Source of the DNA: Blastococcus sp. URHD0036
GTDB lineage: Bacteria > Actinomycetota > Actinomycetes > Mycobacteriales > Geodermatophilaceae
DNA length: 64,000 nucleotides
Reading direction: 5' to 3'
NCBI RefSeq assembly: GCF_000701365.1
Contig: NZ_JNIK01000011.1
Span: 248,001-312,000, forward strand
Below, in pieces: positions 11,898 to 28,203 of the stretch. Both the position numbers and the translations under genes were made by a program. The notes beneath the pieces are model-generated. The model saw nothing but the letters and a program-made list of their open reading frames with translations, was not told the DNA's origin and ran no database searches. Position 1 is the first letter of the stretch. The number at the start of each line of letters is the position of its first letter.

Positions 11898-12650
11898 ATG
11901 AGCGAGCTCGAGGGACGCACCGCACTGGTCACCGGCGCGAGCCGTGGCATCGGCCTGGCGATCGCGCAGAGCCTGGTCCGCCGCGGCGCGCGGGTCGTCG
12001 TCACCGCCCGCAAGCCCGAGGCGCTCACCGAGGCCGTCGCCGCCCTGGGCGGGCCGGTCGTCGCCGTCGGGGTCGCCGGCAACGCGGGCGACCCGCAGCA
12101 CCGGGCGGAGGCGGTGCGCACCGCCGTCGACACCTTCGGCAGCCTCGACATGCTGGTCGGCAACGTGGGCATCAACCCCGTCTTCGGGCCGATGGTCGAC
12201 CTGGACCTCGACGCCTTCCGCAAGATCCTCGACACCAACGTGGTCGGGACCCTGGGCCTGGTGCAGGAGGCCTGGCGGGCCTGGATGGCGGAGCACGGCG
12301 GCTCGGTGCTGGTCGTCGCCTCCGTGGCCGGCCTCAAGTCCTCCCCCGGCATCGCCGGCTACGGGGTGAGCAAGGCCGCGCTGATCAACATGGTGACCCA
12401 GCTGGCGGTCGAGCTCGGCCCGAAGGTTCGGGTGAACGCGGTCGCCCCCGCCGTGGTGAAGACCCGGTTCGCCGGAGCGCTCTACGAGGGCCGCGAGGAG
12501 GAGGCGGCGAAGGGCTACCCGGTCGGCCGGCTCGGGGAGCCGGAGGACATCGGCGAGGCCGCGGCCTACCTGCTCGGCGCCGGTGCCGGGTGGGTCACCG
12601 GCCAGACGCTCGTGCTGGACGGCGGCACGCTCTCCCGCGGCCCCGCGTGA
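11898..12650 (+). CDS. SDR-family oxidoreductase (FabG-like)
   Basis: Short-chain dehydrogenase of 250 residues. It has the NAD(P)-binding motif TGASRGIG (about 13-20), the NVG segment, catalytic Ser in VVASVAG and YGVSK (Tyr-x3-Lys). It ends with the substrate-loop and dimer region GWVTGQTLVLDGG. The residue after the second strand is Arg (VVTARKPE), which suggests NADPH. The substrate cannot be read from sequence. A good AGGAG lies 6 nt before the ATG. It is a monocistronic gene converging on the repeat-containing membrane protein. Confidence 0.85.
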   Translation: MSELEGRTALVTGASRGIGLAIAQSLVRRGARVVVTARKPEALTEAVAALGGPVVAVGVAGNAGDPQHRAEAVRTAVDTFGSLDMLVGNVGINPVFGPMVDLDLDAFRKILDTNVVGTLGLVQEAWRAWMAEHGGSVLVVASVAGLKSSPGIAGYGVSKAALINMVTQLAVELGPKVRVNAVAPAVVKTRFAGALYEGREEEAAKGYPVGRLGEPEDIGEAAAYLLGAGAGWVTGQTLVLDGGTLSRGPA

Positions 12651-12651
12651 C

Positions 12652-12717
12652 GGCCCCCTCGCAGGGGCCCGCCGCGAGCGTGCGAGGGGCGGGGGGCGAG
12701 GGGGTCCTTCCTCAGTG
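12652..12717 (-). repeat. 3'-end hairpin repeat, copy A
   Basis: On the minus strand this copy starts at the stop codon of the 12712-14199 gene (CACTGAG, then AAGGACC). It continues with a 9-bp arm (CCCCCTCGC), a 33-nt loop and the matching arm (GCGAGGGGG) closed by GG/CC with a bulged A. Copy B lies after ppa at 28057-28120. It has the same loop length, 28 of 33 identical loop bases, and four compensatory arm changes. It probably also acts as the terminator between the two converging genes. Confidence 0.8.
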
Positions 12718-14199
12718 GCGGCCGAGGACCCGGCCCAGGACGTCGTCGTCCTCGTCGTCGTCCCGGTAGCGGTGCCGCCGGCGGCCGGACCCGGCGGCGG
12801 CCGCCCCGCTCTCGGCGAGGATCTGCGCGAGCCGGGCCTCGCCCGGCGTGGGGACGACCGGGGTCTGCACGGTCATCGGCTCGGGGGGCAGCGGCTCCGG
12901 GGGCAGCGGTGCCGGCGGGCGCGGCCACGCCTCGCCCAGCAGGTCGGGCCGCGCCGCGGGCTCGTCCCAGACGTGCCGCTCGGCCGGCGCCGCGAGGGGC
13001 CGTTCCACGGTCAGCTGCTCAGCGGTCCCCGCGTCGTCGCGCCGGCGTCGTGGGCTGGGTGCCCCGGCGGGGGCCGCGGAAGGAGCGTCCTGCTCGACGT
13101 CCCGCCGCCAGCTGGGGACCTCCGACTGCCAGGAGGGCGCCGGCTCGGCCCGCCAGGAGGGCGTCGGGTCGGCCTGCTGCGCGCGGATGCCCTGCAGCGC
13201 CTCGTACCCGCGCGTCTCCGGCGCCGGTGGCGCCACCGGCGGCACCGGCGGCGGCGACCACTCCGGCGCCGCGGGGACCCGGGGTCCCTGCGCCGGGGGC
13301 TCGATGCGGGCGGCGGGCCAAGCGCCCGTGACCTCCCGCGGGGGCTGGTCCGACCAGCTGACCGCGTCGATGGTGCGCGTGCTCGGCCCCTCGACGGAGG
13401 CCGGCGTGGCCCGGGACGACTGCGTCCGCATGACGATCCGCTCGAGGAACATCTCGCTGGACAGCTGCTCGGTCAGCTCGGTGCGCAACCGGCCCACGTC
13501 GGCCCGGAGCTCGGCGAGCTGGCCCAGCTCCGCGCGGATCGCCGACACGCCCGCGAGCTGCTCCCGGAGCCCACCGGGCCCGGAGACGTCGTCGCGCAGG
13601 GTGTCCAGTGCGGCCAGCTCGGTGCGCAGCGTCCCGAGGGCCGCGACGTCCTGCCGCAGCGCGCCGAGGGCGGCCACCTCCCGGCGGAGGCCGTCGAGGG
13701 CGGCGAGGTCGTGCCGGAGCGAGCCGAGGGCGACCACGTCCTGGCGCAGCGCGCCCAGGGCCGCCACCTCCTGACGCAGCGCGCCGACGGCCGCCAGGTC
13801 CTGCCGCAGCGCACCCAGCGCCGCGACGTCACGGCGCAGCGCCGCGAACTCCGTGCGCATCGCGTCCTCGGACTCCCGGCGCAGCCGGTTCTCCGTCTCG
13901 AGCTCGTGCTGCCGGCGGCCGGCGACCTCGCGGGCCAGCTCCAGCTCGTGCGCGCGGCGCAGGGCGGAGGTGTCGGCCGAGGTCCCCGCCCGGCGCCGGC
14001 CGGTGGCCAGGAGCGCGAGCACGAACCCCCAGGCGCCGGCCAGGACCCCCAGCCGGAGCACCCGCGGGTCGTCGCTCAGGAACACCACGACCGTCGCCGC
14101 CACGGCCAGCAGGGCGCCGGCGGCGATCCCCCAGTGACGGCGGTCGGCGGTCGCGGGTCGACCCGATGAGTCGCCCTGATCGACCTGTCCCCCGCGCAT
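12712..14199 (-). CDS. Membrane protein with twelve 10-residue coiled-coil repeats (Rv3604c position)
   Basis: The 495-residue protein has two N-terminal transmembrane segments (about 24-41 and 47-66), then a charged helical stretch. Residues 121-240 hold twelve near-perfect 10-residue repeats with consensus LRxDVAALGA, for example LRQDVAALGT. A Pro/Trp-rich, probably disordered tail and an acidic-basic C-terminus follow. Position and layout match Rv3604c-like proteins (DUF6779 by recollection). Function is unknown. A decad is unusual for a coiled coil. The ATG at 14199 is preceded by GGAGG at 2-nt spacing; longer upstream in-frame starts look like non-coding sequence. Confidence 0.75.
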   Translation of the reverse strand: MRGGQVDQGDSSGRPATADRRHWGIAAGALLAVAATVVVFLSDDPRVLRLGVLAGAWGFVLALLATGRRRAGTSADTSALRRAHELELAREVAGRRQHELETENRLRRESEDAMRTEFAALRRDVAALGALRQDLAAVGALRQEVAALGALRQDVVALGSLRHDLAALDGLRREVAALGALRQDVAALGTLRTELAALDTLRDDVSGPGGLREQLAGVSAIRAELGQLAELRADVGRLRTELTEQLSSEMFLERIVMRTQSSRATPASVEGPSTRTIDAVSWSDQPPREVTGAWPAARIEPPAQGPRVPAAPEWSPPPVPPVAPPAPETRGYEALQGIRAQQADPTPSWRAEPAPSWQSEVPSWRRDVEQDAPSAAPAGAPSPRRRRDDAGTAEQLTVERPLAAPAERHVWDEPAARPDLLGEAWPRPPAPLPPEPLPPEPMTVQTPVVPTPGEARLAQILAESGAAAAGSGRRRHRYRDDDEDDDVLGRVLGRH

Positions 14200-14263
14200 G
14201 GCCTCCAGCGTAACGGCGGATCGCCCTCCGCTCACGCTCCGAACTGCATCCGTGACGCAGACG

Positions 14264-14302
14264 CCACGAGGCCCCCGCGGAGTTCCCGCGGGGGCCTCGT
14301 GG
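14264..14302 (-). terminator. Terminator of the osmoprotectant binding-protein gene
   Basis: A 17-bp perfect stem (14264-14280 with 14286-14302; arm CCACGAGGCCCCCGCGG) around a 5-nt loop, 12 nt after the proX-like stop codon. Confidence 0.85.
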
Positions 14303-14314
14303 ACGGCGGTGCGA

Positions 14315-15328
14315 TCAGGACTGGGCCAGCGCACCGTCCGAGCTGAAGACCAGACCGAGCGAGACCTCGCCCTGCTCGATCGCGCCCTTGGTCAGCGGGC
14401 CACCGGCGTCCAGGGGGACGAACTCGGCGAACTGCATCCCGTAGGTGTCCTCGAGGCCCGGCTGGCAGAACGGCCGGGTCGGGCACTCCTCCGGACCACC
14501 GAGGACGAGCGAGCCGTCGCCGCAGGCGTCGGCGAGCTCCGACAGGGTCGAGACCCCGAGGCCGTCGGCGAACTCCTGGGTCACGGCGAAGGCGTTCTGG
14601 TCGGCGGCCTCGGAGGGCTCCCCGAAGGTGAGGCCGACCTGCTCGGCGAGCGTCTGCAGGGCGTCCCGCGTGGCCGTCACGTCGCCGCTCGCGACCGGGT
14701 CGGGGTTCGCGCCGTTGACCTGGGCGTTGAGCGCCTCGGTCACGGTCGCCAGGTACTCGGGGAAGACCTGCAGGTCCGAGCCGGAGATGAGCGCCGGGAG
14801 GTAGAGGTCGCGGTTGCCCACCGTGCGGACCGAGGCGTCGAAGCCGGCGGACTTGAGGACGTCGGCGTAGATGTTGCCCAGGATCGTCGACTCCGTGAAG
14901 TCCGCGGCGCCCACGACGATCGAGCCGCTGCCCTGCTCCAGGCCGTCGGTGACGCCGCTGTCCTCCACCCACGCGGCCGCGACGTCCTCGGCGCTCTCCC
15001 GCTGGAGGTCCACCGACGCGTTCAGCTCGACGAGGTCCTCGGTGGTGAGCGCGGCCGAGATCGCGTCGAGCGCCGGCAGGAGCGCGGGGTTGCTCGTCGC
15101 GGTCACCGACGTCACGGCCGGGATGATGTTGTCGGCGTTCTGCAGCTCCATGTCGTCCTCGAGGACGACGAGCTGGTCACCGGCGACCGGCGCGCACGCG
15201 TCACCGCTGGCGGCACTGCCGCTGGTCTCGTCGCCCCCGGTGCCCGACGAGCCGGAGTCGCCGCAGGCCGCGGTGGCGAGCACCGCGGCGATCGCGAGGG
15301 GGAGGAATGCACGGGAACGCCTGGTCAC
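14315..15328 (-). CDS. Glycine betaine/osmoprotectant ABC transporter binding lipoprotein, apparently circularly permuted
   Basis: Extracytoplasmic solute-binding lipoprotein of 337 residues with a lipobox ending at C22 (LATAAC). The part normally at the C-terminus of ProX/OpuCC proteins (LVVLEDDMELQNADNIIPAV and LTTEDLVELNASVD, residues 51-129) comes first here. The canonical N-terminal lobe (GSIVVGAADFTES from 135) follows, and the protein ends at LGLVFSSDGALAQS, where the VVLED segment would normally continue. This is the signature of a circular permutation. Four extra cysteines (C45 and three near the end) could form disulfides. The start is GTG at 15328 with GAAGG upstream. The likely partners are the two permeases upstream and the divergent ATPase. 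Confidence 0.9.
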   Translation of the reverse strand: MTRRSRAFLPLAIAAVLATAACGDSGSSGTGGDETSGSAASGDACAPVAGDQLVVLEDDMELQNADNIIPAVTSVTATSNPALLPALDAISAALTTEDLVELNASVDLQRESAEDVAAAWVEDSGVTDGLEQGSGSIVVGAADFTESTILGNIYADVLKSAGFDASVRTVGNRDLYLPALISGSDLQVFPEYLATVTEALNAQVNGANPDPVASGDVTATRDALQTLAEQVGLTFGEPSEAADQNAFAVTQEFADGLGVSTLSELADACGDGSLVLGGPEECPTRPFCQPGLEDTYGMQFAEFVPLDAGGPLTKGAIEQGEVSLGLVFSSDGALAQS

Positions 15329-27565: not shown

Positions 27566-28060
27566 GTGCAGTTCGACGTGACGGTAGAGATCCCCAAGGG
27601 CCAGCGGAACAAGTACGAGCTGGACCACGCCACCGGCCGCATCCGCTTGGACCGGATGCTGTTCACCTCCACCCGCTATCCGGCGGACTACGGGTACATC
27701 GAGATGACCCTCGGTCAGGACGGCGACCCGCTCGACGCCCTGGTGCTCCTGGAGGAGCCGACCTTCCCCGGGTGCCTGATCACCTGCCGGGCGATCGGCA
27801 TGTTCCGCATGACCGACGAGGCGGGCGGGGACGACAAGGTCCTCACCGTCCCGGCCACCGACCCGCGGATGTCGCACCTCAAGGACATCACCGACGTCTC
27901 GGAGTTCGACCGGCTGGAGATCCAGCACTTCTTCGAGACCTACAAGGACCTCGAGCCGGGCAAGTCGGTCGAGGGTGCCGAGTGGGTCGGGCGCGCCGAG
28001 GCCGAGGCCGAGATCGAGGCCTCCATCCGGCGTGCCGCCGAGGCCGGCCCCCACCACTGA
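27566..28060 (+). CDS. ppa: Inorganic pyrophosphatase, family I
   Basis: Hydrolyses pyrophosphate from biosynthetic reactions. The 164-residue protein has [33 protein letters not shown] with the metal-binding Asp residues, and [28 protein letters not shown]. The GTG at 27566 is the conserved start ([12 protein letters not shown]). No ribosome binding site is evident. It is divergent from dacB, with a 56-bp gap between the chosen starts. Confidence 0.96.
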
Positions 28061-28120
28061 GAAAGGACCACCCTTCCCCCCACGCCTCGCAAGCTCGGCG
28101 CGGGCCCCTGAAGGGTGGCC
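28057..28120 (+). repeat. 3'-end hairpin repeat, copy B
   Basis: This copy starts at the ppa stop codon (CACTGAG, then AAGGACC). A 9-bp arm CCACCCTTC (28068-28076), a 33-nt loop (28077-28109) and the matching arm GAAGGGTGG (28110-28118) follow, again with an outer GG/CC pair and a bulged A. Copy A is at 12652-12717 on the other strand. The loop contains an inner CGCC/GGCG pairing. Confidence 0.8.
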
Positions 28121-28167
28121 GAACCCCTGGCCCTCCTCAGAGCGGCCGCCGAGCGCACGACGGACAT

Positions 28168-28203
28168 CGACGGCGGTGCACCCCCCGGGGTGCACCGCCG
28201 TCG
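28168..28203. terminator. Palindromic terminator between ppa and lipoprotein gene
   Basis: An almost perfect 36-bp palindrome (arm CGACGGCGGTGCACCCC) lies 26 bp before the end of the converging lipoprotein gene. Together with repeat copy B it makes two stacked hairpins after ppa. Confidence 0.8.

Follow-up and report, generated by a model that had tools for sequence, protein, structure and literature searches.

A hairpin repeat anchored at stop codons across the Geodermatophilaceae

Short hairpins near the ends of genes have been described in several bacterial systems. The attC site of integrons is a hairpin that follows a gene's stop codon, has variable paired arms and an extrahelical base, and is found in cassette arrays. 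The stop-codon detail of the mycobacterial MIRU repeats concerns the word DTGA. In the excerpts of the sources used for these comparisons, MIRU are inserted at start codons and carry an internal open reading frame that is coupled to the next gene (PMC12548453). REP, Bor, Ype and Efa are short repeated hairpins found preferentially close to coding regions, Ype and Efa lying near the 3' ends of coding sequences (PMC1590033). Bacterial hairpin terminators that lack a U-tract place their hairpin near the stop codon (PMC8355165).

How does the repeat described here compare with these systems? Palindromic repeats near gene ends are already known, and what differs in the present case is an unusually exact stop-codon target. 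On the same excerpts, the closest precedents are the Ype, Efa and Bor palindromic repeats near gene 3' ends, together with MIRU. Like REP, Bor, Ype and Efa, it is a short repeated hairpin near coding regions; unlike them, it begins at a fixed distance from the stop codon, within 0-5 nt in 117 of 131 copies and with a different spacing for TGA than for TAG, and it has many compensated stem variants and actinobacterial hosts. With MIRU, compared by description, it shares the character of a (very probably) mobile short repeat placed with codon precision at gene junctions, one copy lying at an ATGA overlap, but it is a hairpin at stops that also occurs between convergent genes, where there is no downstream start. 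It resembles the REP sequences associated with RAYT in being a high-copy extragenic hairpin (PMC2817692), but it lacks a GTAG-type start, and a Y1 enzyme was found in none of 108 family genomes. By description it is also like attC, with a hairpin after the stop, variable paired arms and an extrahelical base; in contrast to attC, it is scattered singly after genes such as that for pyrophosphatase and not in cassette arrays. With the U-less terminators it shares a hairpin near the stop, but the present element, known here from sequence alone, is repeated, varies in presence between species and has a conserved apical sequence.

The window analysed is a stretch of 64,000 nucleotides from Blastococcus sp. 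URHD0036. An earlier note on it had described two 3'-end repeats, copies A and B, with CACTGAG, AAGGACC and a bulged A in common, a 33-nt loop with 28 identical bases, a 9-bp stem, and four stem differences each matched by a change of the partner base. Direct reading of both sites found every one of these features, which are listed here.

12712..12714, minus strand: TGA stop at copy A, closing the gene of a DUF6779 protein (12712-14334, minus; PF20570); reading, gene call and Pfam
12652..12710, minus strand: copy A, a GAAGG(A)CC-stem-loop-stem-GGCC element; reading, with a model score of 81.4 bits over 12648-12713
12696..12704, minus strand: 5' arm of copy A, CCCCCTCGC, partner at 12654-12662, bulged A at 12705; reading and MFE fold
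12654..12662, minus strand: 3' arm of copy A, GCGAGGGGG; reading and MFE fold
28058..28060, plus strand: TGA stop at copy B, closing the inorganic pyrophosphatase gene (27566-28060, plus; PF00719); reading and Pfam
28062..28120, plus strand: copy B, an AAAGG(A)CC-stem-loop-stem-GGCC element; reading, with a model score of 87.2 bits over 28059-28124
28068..28076, plus strand: 5' arm of copy B, CCACCCTTC, partner at 28110-28118, bulged A at 28067; reading and MFE fold
28110..28118, plus strand: 3' arm of copy B, GAAGGGTGG; reading and MFE fold
28077..28109, plus strand: 33-nt apical part of copy B, inside which lies a second stem showing covariation across the repeat family; family alignments

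On the minus strand, copy A runs from the TGA (12714-12712) through GAAGG, the A at 12705, CCCCCTCGC, the 33-nt loop and GCGAGGGGG to a CC ending at 12652. It occupies 59 of the 61 bp that separate two convergent stop codons, the opposing gene being that of a short-chain dehydrogenase (SDR), which ends at 12650. Copy B, on the plus strand, has the same layout, with TGA at 28058-28060, AAAGG, the A at 28067, CCACCCTTC, a 33-nt loop, GAAGGGTGG and a CC ending at 28120. In both copies the 9-bp stem is lengthened by GG/CC. The loops differ at five of 33 positions, counted by eye, and the arms at positions 3, 6, 7 and 8, where the partners have changed too and Watson-Crick pairs are kept. The MFE folds of both are stable; against shuffles, the fold of copy B has a z of -2.25 and that of copy A, at -0.58, is not better than the shuffles. 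The window has no further convincing copy, since the family model, which was built from 18 sequences that include both A and B, scores 87.2 bits for B, 81.4 for A and 18.6 for the next match. At the Rfam gathering score the only match in the window was a tRNA, and the repeat has no Rfam family.

Across the source genome, the pattern AAGGACC-N8..40-GGGCCCCTG gave 19 exact matches against one for its reversed control, and a covariance model, R1, gave 34 matches at E values up to 1, of which 30 score at least 58 bits and two overlap each other on opposite strands. These numbers speak against chance or a two-copy coincidence. With at most 150 candidates scored, two congeners have at least 104 and at least 119 R1 matches, and matches occur in 101 of the 112 family genomes, where the counts per genome are lower bounds because about 46 candidates were scored in each. 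In the order search, 20 of 150 genomes matched R1, 18 of them in the same family. The remaining two, G164 and G173, belong to two other families of the order and have two and one strong matches, for which transfer or contamination is possible. At the level of the class, with 17 candidates scored per genome, one of 296 genomes matched, and it is the window's own. A scan of named genomes with a pattern of fixed apical part found at least 116 stretches; among the records listed, 79 of 80 are titled Geodermatophilus, Blastococcus, Modestobacter, Trujillonella or Geodermatophilaceae, and the remaining one is a Frankiales MAG. Two small exceptions aside, the repeat was found in one actinobacterial family, which by the named records is Geodermatophilaceae.

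Within the family, two genomes (G003 and G031) and three genera (g6-g8) have zero R1 matches, and two genomes (G019 and G009) have two to four. Congeners of G003, G031, G009 and G019 reach at least 46, and such pairs of copy-poor and copy-rich relatives would be useful for tracing the agent by gene content. An element of phage or plasmid origin was also considered. Copy B matched nothing in plasmid and phage records, and three pattern matches in viral contigs did not, by eye, contain such a hairpin element. In the open literature searched, no account of the repeat was found among the titles and openings of abstracts listed; a few terms searched in PMC9686282 and PMC3035280 returned only CRISPR and unrelated passages.

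Where do the copies lie? A stop triplet is found 0-9 nt 5' of GG(A)CC in 122 of 131 copies, against a background of 11% in 655 control windows, and within 0-5 nt in 117. The 131 copies are 21 of the 22 in one match set, the best 40 of 50 in another, and 70 loci (L020-L089) that are the best-scoring R1 matches from the searches of the own genome, congeners, family and order. Spacing from the stop falls into peaks: TGA+4 (73 copies), TGA+1 (14), TAG+5 (14) and TAG+2 (5). In the named, pattern-selected set the stop is at the expected place in 109 of 116 copies. The stops close open reading frames of fewer than 60 codons in five of the 122 cases of the first set and ten of the 109 of the named set. 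Copies are in sense orientation relative to the preceding gene. Gene ends were called by a simple, purpose-written predictor in three 400-kb stretches, where 52 of 61 copies begin at most 12 nt from such an end; nine lie away from a predicted stop, and at least three of these are at stops that the predictor missed, as judged by orthologs. The hairpin repeat is therefore real, family-wide and anchored at stop codons, with an unusually exact target. The earlier note had proposed a search for more copies just after stop codons with further covariation, and both were found, in 101 of 112 family genomes and at stops in 122 of 131 copies.

The base before the stop is also biased. C precedes TGA in 69 of 73 copies, whereas for predicted genes the figure is 618 of 969 (p 4e-9); the named set gives 46 of 51. 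This bias indicates that the word CTGA matters. This word occurs 603 times at intergenic places that are not stops and 618 times at predicted stops. Because CTGA is about equally frequent off stops, the word alone is insufficient for the anchoring, and either avoidance of other places by selection or a link to the gene end is needed. TAG is overrepresented at copies (24 of 122, against 103 of 1079 predicted genes, p 0.002), and a Shine-Dalgarno-like AAGGA was noted just 3' of the stop codon. At one convergent locus, L142:10348 in G096 and L164:4254 in G102, copies in opposite orientations have no stop at the usual place (..ATGGAAGG and ..CTGGGAGG), and a reading frame may therefore extend into the element.

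The repeat is about 60-80 bp in size. Its predicted fold is an outer stem of 11 bp with a bulged A, topped by an inner stem of 7 bp, and the consensus 5' of the stem is N-GAA-GG. In an alignment of 18 of the 19 pattern matches, the named pairs are formed in 95.0% of cells and the covariation score is 0.313, where shuffles give 82.4% and 0.111. Less extreme is the number of further pair types, which 46 of 500 shuffles reach. A larger alignment kept 221 of 245 copies, eight having been dropped as poorly paired and the others as being of another length, and column statistics were taken from the 182 gap-free copies of exactly 56 nt. In these 182, near-invariance extends over the GG, the CC, the stem base and most of the apical part, while five adjacent stem pairs (columns 5-9) are variable, each still a standard pair in 170-179 copies. 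Inside the 33-nt loop, a second stem covaries across the family: columns 19/34 are CG in 149 copies and GC in 23, and columns 20/33 are less strict, with pairing in 140. There are 41 six-base stem variants, the common ones occurring in several genomes, and perfect 9-bp arms in 140 copies. Some copies have a 3' extension, GTTCCAGCACGTCACC, with a GTTC start in 30 of 124 (25 of 103 in the named set). Extended basal pairing of GAA with TTC is full in 48 of 221 copies and is thus a trait of some copies only. In the right flanks of L180-L295, the right half of the element recurs after several copies (..GCTCG..GGGTCCCTG..GGCCGTTTCAGCACGTCA), as if the 3' half were duplicated in tandem.

Comparisons between species indicate that the repeat is very probably mobile. 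In G096 and G102, which are about 90% identical, 37 orthologous genes have a copy in at least one of the two and 25 of these are one-sided; for the more distant pair G096 and G104 the numbers are 34 and 30. Between species about 95% identical, presence differs at most of the sites read. For 23 of the 25 and 26 of the 30 one-sided genes, the nearest stop within 15 nt of the aligned end does not shift in the alignment, much as in genes free of copies (207 of 218 and 143 of 170). An element that brings a new stop and truncates genes is disfavoured by this unchanged frame end. Nor does the type of stop clearly switch more often upon insertion: it differs in 4 of 25 and 3 of 30 one-sided genes, and in 11 of 218 and 19 of 170 genes without a copy. 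Among 26 of 35 sites that were kept for a comparison of four species, there were 13 full copies, 11 partial or other hairpins, 28 absences and five copies of opposite orientation, and 21 species-site cells had no ortholog. Deletion losses exist, as seen in remnants with short loops, so presence and absence cannot always be polarised as gain. No consistent target-site duplication was readable.

Several single sites illustrate this turnover. At two convergent gene pairs (L157/L177:1807 and L145/L167), sister species have copies of opposite orientation, each of them 3' of the stop of its own sense gene. All three genomes of the window's genus have a GGACC hairpin behind the pyrophosphatase gene: a full copy in G000, the same stem with a shorter apex in G002 and a different short hairpin in G001. 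None was found in the 27 other family loci read, the gene being present in 104 genomes. The G104 copy at L305:18814 sits on an ATGA overlap of stop and start; set against the G105 ortholog, the gene downstream of it seems, by eye, to have a new start codon.

What does the covariation of the stem mean? The earlier note had taken the conserved loop and covarying stem as a sign of selection on RNA structure, beyond simple duplication. Its expectation of many stop-adjacent copies with more covariation was borne out; covariation as a demonstration of RNA selection was not, given a presence that varies between species about 90-95% identical, a pool of stem variants, and the pair counts that follow. 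At sites shared between species the stems differ in 14 of 17 comparisons, six of which come from a single site. Of 41 changed pairs, 35 are Watson-Crick in both species and six are not, a count biased toward compensated changes because a full copy was required to have 10 of 11 stem pairs. It supersedes a looser count that included poor hairpins (88 compensated, 68 non-Watson-Crick). Among 910 cells of the variable pairs, those that are not Watson-Crick comprise five G-T, 15 A-C and 17 others; the pairing filter counts G-T as paired and so cannot have depleted G-T in favour of A-C. Slow compensation at the RNA level should pass via G-U, and since G-T is not enriched, the covariation alone is no proof of RNA selection. 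The spread of copies with different stems, together with repair of the arms by template switching, can explain the covariation at the DNA level; template switching is described as a source of compensatory hairpin changes in the excerpt of PMC8794818 consulted. Selection for a DNA hairpin fits the covariation equally, and an RNA role of the hairpin is possible.

Taken together, the repeat is probably a mobile palindromic repeat that inserts at stop codons, has its arms matched at the DNA level and yields a hairpin at the 3' end of the mRNA. Some activity would insert new copies at stop codons, which are a safe place for insertion because no protein is altered. The arms would stay complementary because copies are drawn from a pool of stem subfamilies; they may also be homogenised by template switching, or be required to form a DNA hairpin for recognition. 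More tentatively, the transcribed hairpin beside the stop may mark the mRNA 3' end, and it may block 3' exonucleases or slow RNA polymerase and so insulate convergent genes; marking of this kind might make many copies tolerable or mildly useful. Independent origin of the copies at unrelated genes is disfavoured by their common apical sequence. It is conceivable, although we think it unlikely, that insertion is directed to stop codons as such on the sense strand, through a link to expression (mRNA, ribosome or release) and not by a DNA word alone, and is carried out by an undescribed enzyme.

Could the element instead serve the host as an RNA 3'-end element, a U-less terminator or stabiliser under selection for RNA structure, with the terminating ribosome controlling when the hairpin forms? 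A hairpin that starts a few nucleotides after the stop lies inside the footprint of the terminating ribosome. The fixed distance from the stop, the sense orientation, the two covarying stems and the stable folds are all consistent with such an element, as is a slight excess of copies ahead of a convergent gene (24 of 52, against 346 of 1078, p 0.048). Genes free of the element are also rich in hairpins near their stops: a perfect 8-bp hairpin starts within 20 nt of the stop in 216 of 999 such genes, taken from the G109, G096 and G102 stretches (L120-L179), the corresponding counts being 77 of 999 for letter-shuffled sequence and 63 for coding sequence. A 3'-end role of the hairpin in mRNA is possible. 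Among the traits of an intrinsic (Rho-independent) terminator, the GC-rich hairpin is present and the U-tract is absent: one of 221 copies has at least four T in the 8 nt that follow it, the T fraction in 12 nt is 0.16, and a search for terminator-like sites returned none at copy A or B. G-T pairs are not in excess, 25 of 37 genes are one-sided between species about 90% identical, and the fold of copy A (z -0.58, against -2.25 for copy B) argues in the same direction. We therefore regard a host-serving RNA element as a rather doubtful account of the repeat.

Two further alternatives fare worse than the mobile repeat inserted at stops. Old 3' elements inherited vertically, diverging by deletion and gene conversion with no new insertions, would accommodate the loop-deleted remnants as well as a doubled start, GAAGTTGAAGG, at the G102 site L174:16547, which fits loss and replacement. 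But the opposite orientations within one convergent gap in sister species, seen in two pairs, the restriction of the pyrophosphatase copy to one genus among 30 loci read, and the 25 one-sided genes of 37 mean that vertical inheritance would need very many losses, and it is improbable. REP sequences of the ordinary kind, mobilised by a RAYT (Y1) transposase, are likewise short, high-copy extragenic palindromes near gene ends; yet the present repeats begin with GAAGG and not with the GTAG/GTGG type of the REP table in the excerpt of PMC2817692, and the Y1 transposase domain (PF01797) was found in none of 108 family genomes, while the control genomes were positive in five of 14. This origin is highly improbable.

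Other enzymes were also sought as the mobilising agent. A Y2 domain (PF04986) was detected in one of 108 family genomes, which is itself free of copies, and in none of 14 control genomes. Reverse transcriptase (PF00078; 47 of 108) and IS110-type (PF02371; 71 of 108) matches are patchy and, by eye, do not track copy number. Neither fits as the agent by eye: the copy-rich G001 and G002 have no reverse transcriptase match, and the copy-rich G096, G102, G104 and G109 have no IS110-type match.

If the repeat is indeed mobile and directed to stops, most family members hold copies that mark frame ends with near single-codon precision, in numbers from tens up to, by extrapolation, a couple of hundred, and they would offer a natural system for how a mobile element locates gene ends. 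The repeat could also help to confirm genuine stop codons in high-GC genomes. Strong covariation in a stem would then not by itself be proof of RNA selection, a caution for RNA discovery based on covariation. From the 216 of 999 element-free genes with a hairpin, other families of stop-near hairpins may exist. About 50 bp 3' of copy B, at 28168-28203 of the window, there is a second inverted repeat, CGACGGCGGTGCACC..GGTGCACCGCCGTCG. Hairpins that resemble it by eye trail the pyrophosphatase gene in many other family loci, so this one looks like an older terminator-like hairpin of that gene.
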